A stretch of DNA of 64,000 nucleotides from Marinobacterium aestuarii. Its GTDB lineage: Bacteria > Pseudomonadota > Gammaproteobacteria > Pseudomonadales > Balneatricaceae. Position numbers and translations under genes: made by a program. The notes under the pieces are model-generated. The model did no database searches. It worked only from the letters and a program-made list of their open reading frames with translations, and was not told the DNA's origin. Each line of letters opens with the position of its first letter. The stretch's first letter is position 1. This document shows, one piece after another, positions 18,266-23,939 of this stretch. The DNA is taken from NCBI RefSeq assembly GCF_001651805.1, contig NZ_CP015839.1, forward strand, positions 3,844,001 through 3,908,000. Direction: 5' to 3'.

Positions 18266-19969
18266 TCAGAACAGAAAGTAGCGCTGTGCCATCGGCAGTA
18301 CCGCGGCAGGCTCACAGATCAGCAAGCGACCATCGGCCCGCACCTGGTAGGTTTGCGAGTCCACCTCGATCACCGGCTGATAGCTGTTGTGCACCATGTC
18401 GTTCTTGGTCACGCTGCGACAGTTGCGCACCTCGCCGATCAGGCTCTTGAGCCCCACCTGCCCTGCCACATCGGCGGCAATGGCCGCCTGGGACATGAAC
18501 AGCATGGAGGTCGCCTGACAGGCACCGCCATAGGCACCAAACATGGGCCTGTAGTGCACCGGCTGCGGCGTGGGGATGGACGCATTCGGGTCCCCCATTG
18601 GCGCCGCGGCAATCAGGCCACCCTTGAGGATAATGCTGGGTTTGGTGCCAAAAAACGCCGGCCGCCAGAGCACCAGGTCCGCCAGTTTGCCGACTTCGAT
18701 AGAACCCACTTCATGGGCAATACCGTGGGCCAGCGCCGGATTGATGGTGTACTTGGCGATATAACGCTTGAGGCGCGTGTTGTCGTGCCCGGCCGGATCA
18801 CCGGCCAGACTGCCGAACTGCACCTTCATCTTGTGGGCTGTCTGCCAGGTGCGGGTAATCACTTCCCCCACCCGTCCCATGGCCTGGGAGTCGGACGAGA
18901 TCATCGAGAAGGCCCCCAGGTCGTGCAGCAGGTCTTCGGCGGCGATGGTTTCGCGGCGGATGCGCGACTCGGCAAAGGCCACGTCCTCGGCGATGCCCGG
19001 GTCCAGGTGATGGCAGACCATCAGCATGTCCAGGTGCTCATCCACCGTATTGACGGTGTAGGGCCGCGTCGGATTGGTGGATGAGGGCAGCACATTGACA
19101 TAGCCCGCCGCCCGGATGATGTCCGGCGCATGGCCACCGCCGGCGCCCTCGGTGTGGTAGGTATGGATGGTGCGCCCGCCGATGGCCTTGAGGGTTTCCT
19201 CCACAAAGCCAGACTCGTTCAGGGTGTCGGTGTGAATCGCCACCTGCACATCCATTTCCTCGGCCACACTGAGCGCGCAGTTGATCGAGGCCGGTGTGGT
19301 GCCCCAGTCTTCATGCAGCTTGAGACCAATGGCGCCGGCCGCCACCTGCTCGCGCAGTGCTTCGGGCTGGCTGGCGTTACCCTTGCCCAGAAAGCCGATG
19401 TTCATGGGCAGCGTATCGGCGGCCTGCAGCATGCGATGCATGTTCCAGGGCCCCGGCGTACAAGTAGTGGCATTGGTGCCGGTAGCAGGCCCGGTGCCGC
19501 CGCCCAGCATAGTAGTGATGCCGGACGTCAGCGCCTCTTCGATCTGCTGCGGGCAGATAAAGTGAATATGGGAGTCGATGCCGCCAGCGGTGAGAATCTG
19601 GCCTTCGCCGGCGAGTATCTCGGTGCCAGGGCCGATCAGAATATCGACGCCCGGCTGCACATCGGAATTACCGGCCTTACCGATGGCCGCGATACGCCCG
19701 GCCTTGATGCCCACATCCGCCTTGACGATGCCCCAGTGATCCAGAATCAGCGCATTGGTGATGACCAGATCCATAGTCTGGCTGCTGGGGAACTGCCCCT
19801 GCCCCATGCCATCACGGATGACCTTGCCACCGCCGAACTTCACCTCGTCGCCGTAAACAGTGAAATCCCGCTCGACCTCCAGCCAGAGCTCGGTATCCGC
19901 CAGCCGCAGCCGGTCGCCGGTGGTGGGCCCGAACATTTCCGCATAGGCCTGTCGTGAGATTCTGGCCAT
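18266..19969 (-). CDS. ureC: Urease alpha subunit
   Basis: 567 residues; hydrolyses urea to ammonia and carbamate. All active-site residues are present at the standard positions: H134, H136, carbamylated K217, H219, H246, H272, flap C319, H320 and D360. The usual partner subunits UreA and UreB are encoded just upstream. The ATG has GGGAGGT upstream and overlaps by one base with the stop of a short ORF (19969-20064) that repeats the first 11 residues of this protein. Confidence 0.99.
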
Positions 19970-20064
19970 CAGTTACACCTCCCTGAATTACACGCGGCAA
20001 AAAGCCCCCCGTGGGCCGCTCTCGTAACGGACTCCGCATAGGCCTGTCTTGATATCCGTGCCAT
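19969..20064 (-). CDS. Short ORF duplicating the UreC N-terminus
   Basis: 31 codons beginning [11 protein letters not shown], identical to UreC residues 1-11, then unrelated [20 protein letters not shown]. The 33 matching bases differ from ureC at six positions, all synonymous. Its ATG overlaps the ureB stop (TAATG) and its TGA overlaps the ureC ATG (TGATG), so ribosomes could pass ureB, this ORF and ureC in turn. GGGGGA lies six bases before the ATG. It may be a relic of recombination that replaced ureC, or a coupling leader peptide. Whether it is translated is unknown. Confidence 0.55.
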
Positions 20065-20369
20065 TACAAGTCCCCCATCACCTTGCCCTGAAAGCCGTAA
20101 ACCCTGCGATTACCGGCATAGGCCACCAGCTCCACGGTGCGGCTCTGCCCCGGCTCAAAGCGCACGGCGGTGCCGGCGGCAATATTGAGACGAAAGCCCC
20201 GCGCCAGCTCACGCTCGAACTGCAATGCATCGTTGACTTCATAGAAGTGGTAGTGGGAACCAATCTGGATGGGGCGATCCCCGGTATTGGCCACCTTGAG
20301 CGTGACCACAGGGCGACCGACGTTCAGCTCAATATCGCCGTTCATCACTTTCATTTCACCCGGGATCAT
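20064..20369 (-). CDS. ureB: Urease beta subunit
   Basis: 101 residues, the usual length for separate UreB. Family blocks [39 protein letters not shown] and [12 protein letters not shown] are present. The ATG at 20369 follows AAGGAGG, an excellent ribosome site, and overlaps the stop of a small Cys-rich ORF (ATGA). Confidence 0.97.
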
Positions 20370-20452
20370 GACGCTTCCTCCTTTGGCAGGGCTGGGCCGC
20401 ACACGCAGAATTCAATACAGCAACCTTCGGTCTTCATTTCATCTGCTGACAT
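20366..20452 (-). CDS. 28-residue cysteine-rich ORF between ureA and ureB
   Basis: Codes [20 protein letters not shown] plus ALPKEEAS. Four cysteines fall in the pattern CC-x3-C-x-C. It starts ten bases after the ureA stop, with GGGGG upstream, and its TGA overlaps the ureB ATG (ATGA). The frame fills the ureA-ureB gap almost exactly, which argues for a real coupled gene. A metal-binding role (nickel in this context) is only an inference from the cysteines. I do not recognise the family. Confidence 0.5.
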
Positions 20453-20462
20453 AGGAGCCCCC

Positions 20463-20765
20463 TCAGACAATAGGATCGTGCACCGTGACCAGCTTGGTGC
20501 CATCGGGAAAGGTCGCTTCGACCTGCACATCGTGGATCATCTCGGCAATCCCATCCATAACATCGTCCAGACTGAGCAGGGTGCGCCCGTAGTCCATCAG
20601 CTCCGCCACAGTACGGCCATCGCGGGCGCCTTCCAGAATGGCTGCACTGATATAAGCCACCGCTTCCGGATAGTTCAGTTTCAGCCCCCGCGCCTTGCGA
20701 CGTTCTGCCAGCAGGCCGGCGGTAAACAGCAGCAGCTTGTCTTTTTCCCGTGGTGTCAATTCCAT
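20463..20765 (-). CDS. ureA: Urease gamma subunit
   Basis: 100 residues, standard for UreA: begins [20 protein letters not shown], with [20 protein letters not shown] and ending [10 protein letters not shown]. Start chosen at the ATG at 20765, where homologues begin, although the frame is open to 21041. It is the first gene of ureA-B-C-E-J-F-G and has a sigma-54-type promoter about 90 bases upstream. Confidence 0.97.
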
Positions 20766-20993: not shown

Positions 20994-21133
20994 CCCCCTG
21001 CACCAAAATGACAGCCTGGAGCAACCGGCTGTTCGCGGCACTGCAGGAGCAAACGGGCAAGCTCAACTAGAATGCATAACAAGGTTCGGCAGCGGGCGGC
21101 ACTTCCTGCCCGCCCTCACACAAGGTGACGGCC

Positions 21134-21790
21134 ATGCGCAACCCACCCCGAATTCCCGGCAGGCCTCAGTCGCGCCGGGAGGAGTTCGTCAACAGCCTGA
21201 GCCACAGTCTGGGTTTCGTCGCCGCCCTGATCGCAGCTCCCGTGCTGATCGCGCAGGCCATTGAGCGCGGCGATATCGGCATCATTATCGGCGCCAGCCT
21301 CTTTGCCCTGAGCATGGTGCTGCTCTACCTGAGCTCCAGCCTTTACCATGCCCTGCCCACGGGCCGCACCAAACGCCTGATGCGCATCATCGAACATTCC
21401 GCGATCTATGTGCTGATTGCCGGCACCTACTCACCCTTTATGCTGGGGGTCCTCGATGGCCCCGGCGGCTGGATACTGCTGACCACCATCTGGTTACTGG
21501 CGGGCATGGGGGTTGTACTGAAAATCACCCAGCGGCTGTCGCGCCCAGCGCTCTCCACCGGGCTTTACCTGCTGATGGGCTGGCTGATTGTGCTCATGAT
21601 CCAGCCACTGAGCGAAGCCCTGTCCGGCACCGGCCTTGCCTGGCTGCTGGGCGGCGGCCTGGCCTATACGGTCGGGGTCGTATTTTTCGTGCTTGATTCC
21701 AGCCTGCTGTACGGGCATTTCATCTGGCACCTGTTTGTCATGGCCGGCACCACCTGCCACTACTTCGCCGTGCTCTGGCATGCGTTCTGA
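21134..21790 (+). CDS. Hemolysin III family membrane protein
   Basis: 218 residues, seven predicted helices. It has the family signatures EEFVNSLSHSLGF near the start, YHALP in the middle and the C-terminal H-x3-H segment (HFIWHLFVMAGTTCHYF). Bacterial HlyIII/YqfA proteins belong to the PAQR-like superfamily; physiological role unclear. Start chosen at the ATG at 21134 with AAGGTG upstream (a GTG at 21125 is in frame). It runs opposite to the urease genes and separates ureA from ureD together with the next gene. Confidence 0.9.
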   Translation: MRNPPRIPGRPQSRREEFVNSLSHSLGFVAALIAAPVLIAQAIERGDIGIIIGASLFALSMVLLYLSSSLYHALPTGRTKRLMRIIEHSAIYVLIAGTYSPFMLGVLDGPGGWILLTTIWLLAGMGVVLKITQRLSRPALSTGLYLLMGWLIVLMIQPLSEALSGTGLAWLLGGGLAYTVGVVFFVLDSSLLYGHFIWHLFVMAGTTCHYFAVLWHAF

Positions 21791-22062
21791 CCCCAGGGTC
21801 CAAGCAATTTCCCCTGCGCCGCCAACGGCCTGCCGATAGACTCCAACATGCCCCGCCCGTATCGAAATTCGCGTTTTCAGCATTGATTCAGTTGCCCGCT
21901 GTCTTAATGGGTATAACCCGTCAAGGCGGCGTGATGCCCTTTTACGCTTGGCAGCACCCTGCCAGTGGCGGGTTGATGCAAAAGATCTGGCCCAGGGAGG
22001 CGCCCGGTTTCCCGGAACAAGTGGAGGTTCCTTCACCCAACTGATAACACCGGAGGTGGCCC

Positions 22063-23031
22063 ATGTCAGCCAGGATTTTAAAGGTACTGACGCTGTTAGC
22101 AGCCACGGTGCTGGCGGGTTGTGCCTACGCCCCCTACCATAGCGGTGGCGCAGTCAGAGACTACGACTACGGCTATGCCGGCGTCGGCTATAGCGACAGC
22201 TACTACGATGATTTTTACTACTATCCGCGCGTGGGTATCTATTTCCATATCCACTCCGGCTACTACTATTATCAGCACGAGCATCGCTGGGTGCGCACCC
22301 GCACCCTGCCGCGGCACTATCGGCTGCACCCCGATCACCGGGTGCGCATGAAAGCCCACCGCGACCAGCCCTACCGCGACTACCAGAAACACAGCCAGCG
22401 TTACCGCGGCGACAGCGACCGCTGGCGTCAGCGTGATGGACGCAATGACGGCCGGGGTGACCGGGACGGGGATCGCCGCCGCAATGATCGGAACGATCGC
22501 AGCGACCGGCAAGATCGCCACTCATCCATTGATGCCCAAAGCGGCCCGCGCCGCTTCGAGCGCAACCGGCAGGACGACGGGCGCAGGCAGGATCAGGCGG
22601 TCGAGCGTCTTCAGCGCAACCGCGAGCGTACCGAACGCATTGAGCGCATCGAACGTTCAGCCGAGGATCGGCGCAAGGCGGAGAGCGCCCGGCGGATAAA
22701 GGAGGCTAACACCTTTGAGAAACGCCAGAGGCTGTATCAGGATGCACTGCGCCGCCAGGAGATAAAACGCGAGCAGGAGAGTCGCCAGTCCGACGGCAGG
22801 GCTAAGCGGGACTCAGGCCGTGCAGAACGAAGGGAAGAGCGACGAGACGACAGGCGCCAGGCCGTACGGGAAGAAGCACGGCAGGATAGAGACAGGGCCC
22901 GCCGTACGGATGGACGGGCAGATGGACGGGCAGACCGGCAGGAAGCAGGCCCCGTCAGGCGCCGAGGCGAAAACGAGGCAGGCAGCGATAGAGACCTGCG
23001 CTGGCTGCGACACAATGATCGTGGCAACTGA
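22063..23031 (+). CDS. Arg/Asp-rich lipoprotein of unknown function
   Basis: 322 residues. A lipoprotein signal (LLAATVLAGC, Cys19) predicts lipidation. A Tyr-rich segment (about 32-75, YYDDFYYYPRVGIYFHIH) is followed by about 230 residues dominated by Arg, Asp, Glu and Gln with few hydrophobic residues, likely disordered or a long charged helix. A short internal DNA repeat (two copies of GATGGACGGGCA near 22909-22932) gives RADGRADG. The ribosome site GGAGGTG is strong. Family not recognised beyond resemblance to Tyr-rich envelope proteins. Confidence 0.75.
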   Translation: MSARILKVLTLLAATVLAGCAYAPYHSGGAVRDYDYGYAGVGYSDSYYDDFYYYPRVGIYFHIHSGYYYYQHEHRWVRTRTLPRHYRLHPDHRVRMKAHRDQPYRDYQKHSQRYRGDSDRWRQRDGRNDGRGDRDGDRRRNDRNDRSDRQDRHSSIDAQSGPRRFERNRQDDGRRQDQAVERLQRNRERTERIERIERSAEDRRKAESARRIKEANTFEKRQRLYQDALRRQEIKREQESRQSDGRAKRDSGRAERREERRDDRRQAVREEARQDRDRARRTDGRADGRADRQEAGPVRRRGENEAGSDRDLRWLRHNDRGN

Positions 23032-23081: not shown

Positions 23082-23918
23082 TCAGGTCGACCAGATCCGC
23101 GGCGGGCAGGGTTCAAGCTTCAGTAACTCGCGGCGCAACAGCTCCCACAAAGGGATAAGCACCGCCTGAATATCTTCAGTATTCTGCCCCAGCATACGCA
23201 CGGCCAGCACCGAATCCACCAGGGTTGCCCCGATGGCATGCTCAGCAAAACGCTCATCAATCAGTGACTGCACCCTGCCCAGCACGGCCTCGGTGGCCGG
23301 CAAGGCATAGAGACTGGCCGCCATGGCATGGCCGCGCATACCCGCGGCGGCACCAAACTGATCCAGCCCCTGTACCTGCAACTGATCAATCAGCACGCGC
23401 TTGCCATTCAAACGCAGCTCACAGCGACTGTCGACGTTGCCAAAGCTGAAGGTTTCATTATTGGCGGGCCGCCCCAGACACTGGAACTCCCAGCCAATAA
23501 AGCGTCCGCCGGCCGCCACATCAATACGGCTGCGCAGGCGGCTCGAGGCGCCGGGGAAGAAGATATTTTCCTGCGGCAACCATTCCAGAATACCGCCATC
23601 CTCGACCCAGAAATGCTGGCACTGATGTGCCGTAAGCCCGGCACAGCGATAGAACTTGGTGGCACCGGGCGTGGTCAGCAGCGCATGGGCGCCACCCCCA
23701 ACCCGCACATCGATCTCCAGCTCATCGCCGCCCACTACGCCACCGGGAGGATGCAACAGGTAACTGTGACAGATGCCGCCCTGGGGATAGAAAGGCCGCT
23801 GCACCGCCAAAGGCCCATGCATGCTGCGATGCACCAAGCGAGTTTTGCCACCGCGGGACTCATACCCCAGCTCCAGCCGGGCCTGCCAACCGCGCTCAGC
23901 CTGTACCGCCGATTGCAT
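23082..23918 (-). CDS. ureD: Urease accessory protein UreD/UreH
   Basis: About 278 residues; scaffold that binds apo-urease and recruits UreFG for nickel delivery. Family blocks LVHRSMHGPLAVQRPFYPQG, HPPGGVVGGDELEIDV, TTPGATKFYR and QENIFFPGA are clear. Start is the ATG at 23918; a TTG two codons upstream (23924) is better spaced from GGGAG and may be the real start. It is the last gene of the urtABCDE operon (about 20 bp after urtE) and is separated from ureA by two genes on the other strand. Confidence 0.95.
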   Translation of the reverse strand: MQSAVQAERGWQARLELGYESRGGKTRLVHRSMHGPLAVQRPFYPQGGICHSYLLHPPGGVVGGDELEIDVRVGGGAHALLTTPGATKFYRCAGLTAHQCQHFWVEDGGILEWLPQENIFFPGASSRLRSRIDVAAGGRFIGWEFQCLGRPANNETFSFGNVDSRCELRLNGKRVLIDQLQVQGLDQFGAAAGMRGHAMAASLYALPATEAVLGRVQSLIDERFAEHAIGATLVDSVLAVRMLGQNTEDIQAVLIPLWELLRRELLKLEPCPPRIWST

Positions 23919-23939
23919 GTTCAATGAAGGCTCCCTCCG

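Follow-up and report, generated by a model that had tools for sequence, protein, structure and literature searches.

Why should a second copy of the start of ureC, set within a small ORF of its own, lie between the genes for the beta and alpha subunits of urease? The question is raised by a minus-strand operon of Marinobacterium aestuarii, in a 64,000-nt stretch of DNA that we call the window, where the genes follow one another in the order ureA, ureB, a 96-nt ORF (hereafter the leader) and ureC. The relevant features, all on the minus strand, are as follows.

20463-20765, minus: ureA, upstream of ureB in the operon
20064..20369, minus: ureB, urease beta subunit, protein start MIPGEM... (Pfam PF00699 on 20064-20372)
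20071..20076, minus: Shine-Dalgarno-like site of the leader, GGGGGA, within ureB; the weaker of the two sites at -8.4 kcal/mol
19969..20064, minus: leader ORF, 31 codons and 96 nt, sharing 1 nt with the ureB stop (TAATG) and 1 nt with the ureC start (TGATG)
20032..20064, minus: opening 33 nt of the leader, a copy of the ureC start that is 27/33 identical to its counterpart
19937..19969, minus: that counterpart, the first 33 nt of ureC
19976..19983, minus: predicted Shine-Dalgarno site of ureC, GGGAGGTG, within the leader; -14.9 kcal/mol against a 16S 3' end
18266..19969, minus: ureC, urease alpha subunit (Pfam PF00449 and PF01979)

A duplicated start at the junction

UreC and the leader peptide begin with the same 11 residues, and the six differences among the 33 nucleotides that encode them are all silent. 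These observations, together with the coordinates and the TAATG and TGATG overlaps, had been made in an initial annotation of the sequence and proved exact throughout. On both strands of the window, this is the sole pair of ATG-, GTG- or TTG-led 33-mers that are at least 26/33 identical and lie 40-499 nt apart, and the duplicated ureC start is more than a chance resemblance. A Pfam search returned no match for the leader peptide.

Two other features of the cluster are recorded here in their own right. A second bridging mini-ORF occupies the ureA-ureB junction (20366-20452, minus strand); there it has 28 codons and a 4-nt ATGA overlap with ureB, G002 has a related version of 29 codons, and that of G003 is short and starts from TTG. 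The ureA-ureB gap is 59 nt without a mini-ORF in G004 and only 9-10 nt in G001, G005 and G006, and the mini-ORF has no Pfam match. Plus-strand ORFs at 21125-23031 split the urease cluster between a ureD-like ORF (23082-23924, minus strand) and ureA; by reading only, they encode a hydrophobic protein of 221 aa and an Arg/Asp-rich, lipoprotein-like one of 322 aa.

The ureB-ureC junction in the genus and its relatives

All seven genus genomes examined (G000 to G006) carry ureC, and comparison with the first 33 nt of that gene reveals a copy upstream of it in six of them (27/33 identical in G000, G001 and G002, 28/33 in G005, 29/33 in G004 and G006); the best upstream match of G003 to its own ureC start is only 17/33. 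A chain of ORFs bridges the ureB-ureC gap of 85-474 nt in every genome. The overlaps are of 1 nt at both ends of the leader in G000, G002, G005 and G006, and the G001 leader starts at TAATG and stops 3 nt upstream of the ureC start. TAATG coupling to ureB is found in six of the seven, the exception being G003, whose ORF, degraded or unrelated and 25-30 codons long depending on the start chosen, begins with GTG in a 4-nt overlap with the ureB stop and ends in TGATG. This last motif joins the leader to ureC in G000, G002, G003, G005 and G006, and it ends all five units of an array in G004. Leaders have 28-31 codons and unit lengths of 86, 90 or 95 nt; the G002 peptide equals that of G000 except for Q3, that of G005 differs by F21, and that of G001 reads MAKISRQACAEAVARAAHIGFFVAGREV. 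The duplication, its overlaps and their conservation across the genus are read directly in these genomes.

Outside the genus, the 500 nt upstream of ureC held a copy of its start at none of 204 junctions examined, the best match being 21/33 among 141 of them and 19/33 among a further 63. The 141 junctions comprise 79 named loci (the best 80 of 588 confirmed matches, minus L039) and 62 family genomes, which are all non-genus family members with a substantial ureC match, three weak-match genomes being excluded. The 63 are a sample of same-order genomes with a ureC match, not the full set. L039, with insufficient upstream DNA, and L197 were excluded from the junction set. By this sequence comparison, the leader is old and genus-wide.

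This distribution bears on one of two explanations offered by the initial annotation, namely that an incoming ureC allele took the place of the resident gene, whose start remained upstream. A TAATG start followed by a second ureC start downstream is the remnant that such an event might be expected to leave. However, a genus-wide feature means that the event would predate the genus, the UreC proteins of the seven genomes form one clade inside the family, sister to family genus g11, and the units in G004 match the ureC gene of that same genome. The genus-wide leader and the single UreC clade speak against allele replacement, which we reject as very unlikely. The comparison of ureC and ureB phylogenies that the annotation had recommended gave this result for UreC; the UreB tree, built on 103 columns, has little resolution, fails to group the genus into a single clade and so provides no test of congruence.

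Among the 204 non-genus junctions, ureB and ureC lie -8 to +10 nt apart in 107, 11-20 nt apart in 22, 21-50 nt apart in 33 and more than 50 nt apart in 37, and five read as fusions. Close ureB-ureC coupling is frequent outside the genus, but not universal. Within the first 130 loci there are 55 non-genus gaps that measure 12-600 nt; under lenient rules, 12 of them contain some bridging ORF, and in only two of those 12 (L099 and L100, both from g11) does the ORF share 1 nt with the gene on either side. This ORF has 12 codons and is found in just two of five g11 genomes with ureC. The apparent UreB-UreC fusions, in which ureB runs in frame into ureC (L085, L087, L088, L136 and L137), belong to Neptuniibacter marinus, two MAGs (Arenicella and Oceanobacter) and two family genomes, and in these last two the frame is open up to the end of the examined stretch.

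The most elaborate junction is that of G004. Five 95-bp units stand there in tandem, each an ORF of 31 codons that TGATG links to its successor, and unit 1 begins with the TAATG at the end of ureB. Over nt 34-95, units 2 and 4 show no differences and units 3 and 5 show five, with all other pairs higher, and this pattern makes it probable that a two-unit block was duplicated. Units 3-5 are identical to the G004 ureC gene over the first 22 nt, including an ATG at codon 4 (I4M) that is absent from the other six genus ureC genes. From this shared change we infer that the units exchange sequence with the ureC 5' end in that species; like the amplification itself, the matching is visible directly in the array. 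Several units carry amino-acid changes in codons 2-11. The initial annotation had concluded that the duplication was not a fresh tandem copy, which holds for the source genome, but in G004 such a unit has multiplied into a tandem array of five. We reject a dispersed or mobile repeat, as the unit occurs in the seven genus genomes only at the ureB-ureC junction and the ureC start. Next-best matches elsewhere in those genomes reached E 0.12, or E 0.011 over 22 nt in another search, and the unit had no plasmid match and no exact 23-mer match in viral contigs.

For the second half of the leader, beyond the copied ureC start, we prefer descent from a spacer like that of g11. The UreC tree places this genus as sister to the leader-bearing one (100/97), and out of 205 loci it is L099 and L100 that come nearest to the last 20 nt of the leader with all four genus queries tried, which together suggest that a short bridging ORF may be older than the ureC-start copy. 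Such a spacer is, however, seen in only two of the five ureC-bearing g11 genomes. A less preferred origin is that the unit represents ureC codons 1-30 with Trp29 turned into a stop. In G001, the final 21 nt of the unit agree with ureC nt 70-90 at 13/21, within the top 0.12% of that gene's 21-mers, and the G006 tail does so at 11/21; nothing stands out in the other nine tails. For G001 beyond its first 11 codons, identity with the ureC genes of all seven genus genomes is 0.393 along the main diagonal (mean 0.272, sd 0.06), but a different codon-phased offset gives 0.451. When the second half was locally aligned with ureC, four of five leaders gave no significant result (G006, P 0.009).

Constraint on the leader sequence

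If the leader were a functionless tandem duplication, ureC would use its own strong Shine-Dalgarno site and the frame would survive by descent and by constraint on that site. We consider this neutral explanation unlikely, though deserving of real weight. The leaders of G000 and G002 differ at 2/95 nt, those of G000 and G005 at 5/95 and those of G002 and G005 at 6/95, so that conservation extends over all 95 nt and divergence is far below that of ureC at synonymous sites (99.5 differences at 417 such sites between G000 and G002). The median for other 95-nt windows of ureB and ureC in the G000-G002 comparison is seven differences. However, windows as low or lower number 6, 75 and 98 of 1014 in comparisons among G000, G002 and G005, placing the leader among the more conserved windows without making it unique. 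The ureB gene of G005 is itself far more diverged from G000 than ureC is (dS 0.69 vs 0.365), above all in its 5' part, and begins much as ureB does in G001 and G006, which suggests local recombination.

The pattern of codon changes also argues against a neutral relic. Parsimony over the five single-copy leaders, with G003 and the G004 units left out, gives 10-11 synonymous and 3-4 amino-acid changes in codons 2-11, where random mutation would be expected to yield about 10 amino-acid changes in 14 (P 0.0001-0.0026 over kappa 1-6). When the test was repeated without G006, because its leader may have been refreshed from ureC, the counts were 7-8 and 3-4 (P 0.003-0.028). Codons 12-18 show one synonymous and five amino-acid changes, and codons past 18 were excluded on account of gaps. 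These data are suggestive of protein-level constraint at codons 2-11, although the counts are low and a similar pattern could result from exchange with ureC.

The same figures might be taken to mean that the leader encodes a functional small peptide, whose UreC-like start acts in nascent or free form, for example in urease assembly. We consider this quite improbable. The bias in codons 2-11 is what it would predict, but codons 12-18 show none, Pfam offers no family, and the refreshing seen in G004 can imitate coding constraint. Moreover, the peptide start is degraded in G003 and in units 1-2 of G004, where the stop/start coupling is retained. The second proposal of the initial annotation, a leader kept under coding selection, is supported in modified form by its genus-wide presence, its near identity in G000 and G002 and the constrained codons 2-11, but not by codons 12-18 or by the degraded start in two of seven genomes. 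The annotation had also expected a neutral relic to show random nonsynonymous changes in relatives; this picture is partly seen in G003 and in G004 units 1-2, but not in the five single-copy leaders. Consistent with neutrality, G003 and G004 unit 1 largely lack the peptide start, whereas the chained frame has been retained in all seven genomes despite the different unit lengths.

Conservation at the level of RNA, in the form of an attenuator-like hairpin between ureB and ureC modulated by the ORF, could account for a GTTNCGAGAGCGGCC-like stretch that is nearly invariant in the five single-copy leaders. Against this, the folding energy is no better than that of shuffled sequences (z -0.02), no terminator-like site was found at the junction, the consensus covariation term is only -0.63 and the coding strand has no Rfam match. 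With folding, terminator, covariation and Rfam all unsupportive, we reject an RNA attenuator on present evidence and judge an RNA element of this type very unlikely. Rfam RF02514 (5_ureB_sRNA) does match the plus strand at 19534-19817, antisense to ureC, with 103.6 bits, and this match may only reflect the conservation of ureC coding sequence.

A proposed ribosome relay and its known counterparts

We somewhat favour the explanation that the leader is a translational relay, which maintains the coupling of ureC to ureB and contains a strong predicted Shine-Dalgarno site for ureC. Ribosomes that end ureB at TAATG would restart on the leader and translate the 28-31 codons there. They would then terminate no more than 3 nt from the ureC start, beside the leader-borne site, and restart on ureC, whose translation would thus remain tied to that of ureB across the 85-474 nt between them. 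The relay may have originated when at least 33 nt of the ureC start were copied upstream of ureC in the genus ancestor, perhaps landing in a shorter bridging micro-ORF like the 12-codon one of two g11 genomes. The peptide itself would probably be a by-product. Published work (PMC10666635, PMC6728339) reports that little reinitiation is left once genes are separated by about 20-38 nt, and that gene overlaps are enriched between subunits of complexes.

Several observations guide this preference. First, an ORF chain spans the long gap in every genus genome, which suggests a ribosome relay. Second, codons 12-18 show no constraint and the peptide start has degraded in two of seven genomes while coupling was kept, and what has been retained therefore looks like a relay rather than a whole peptide. 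Third, energies computed against a 16S rRNA 3' end place the leader-borne ureC site at -14.9 kcal/mol in G000, G002, G005 and G006 and -12.3 in G001, with weaker values of -11.6 in G004 and -10.5 in G003; the 187 of 205 non-genus loci whose start codon lies where expected have a median of -7.4 and a 5th percentile of -11.57 kcal/mol. The leader's own Shine-Dalgarno-like site scores -8.4 kcal/mol in six of seven genomes and -5.2 in G003.

Other observations weigh against the relay. A Shine-Dalgarno site of such strength at the unit end could start ureC without coupling, as the neutral explanation holds, and in G004 and G003 the site is, respectively, near the non-genus 5th percentile and weaker than it. 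Coupling is not generally required, because many relatives have uncoupled gaps (the 33 and 37 junctions beyond 20 nt noted above), and a bridging frame alone is not rare, given the 12 found in 55 gaps. The amino-acid constraint at codons 2-11 is unpredicted by a pure relay. Translation of the leader, reinitiation and coupling as the reason for its retention are deduced from sequence, which leaves the neutral relic its share of probability. An extended form of the relay, which we put forward tentatively as a rather unlikely possibility, is a self-seeding ladder in which the urease operon copies the ureC start upstream, the units pass ribosomes on, and their number (mostly one, five in G004) tunes the amount of UreC per UreB; a contribution by the UreC-like nascent peptide would then explain the codon-level constraint.

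The relay, if correctly understood, is a concrete case for the origin of short coupled ORFs in operons, in which a gene's own translation start can duplicate to form an ORF that spans a gap and may maintain the coupling of two enzyme subunits. The natural series from one to five units could be used to test how many consecutive termination-reinitiation steps a ribosome makes. A search of the open-access literature, which leaves most subscription journals outside, found no report on translational coupling of ureB and ureC or on urease operon duplications with small ORFs.

Precedents exist for coupled short upstream ORFs, for bicistronic designs and for mycobacterial interspersed repetitive units, or MIRUs (PMC12548453, PMC5995908). 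The relay resembles overlapping gene pairs with termination-reinitiation coupling (PMC6728339, PMC10666635) and the short ORFs that a review (PMC12548453) describes as proposed to deliver ribosomes downstream. With these it has in common a short ORF whose stop overlaps the following start (TGATG), a Shine-Dalgarno site inside the upstream ORF and subunits of one complex as products. Unlike them, the relay has a subunit gene on either side and is coupled to both, is built from the start of the downstream gene itself and can be amplified in tandem. MIRUs likewise are short repeats with an ORF coupled to the adjoining gene, and by the same review's account they are apparently mobile and insert at start codons with a -4 nt spacing; the relay, in contrast, occurs only at ureB-ureC in the seven genomes, is derived from ureC and mostly has a 1-nt overlap. 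A further parallel is the synthetic bicistronic design (PMC5995908), where a translated short leader contains the Shine-Dalgarno site for the gene that follows and terminates on the start of that gene, but the relay is natural, sits within an operon and would be fed by ureB upstream.
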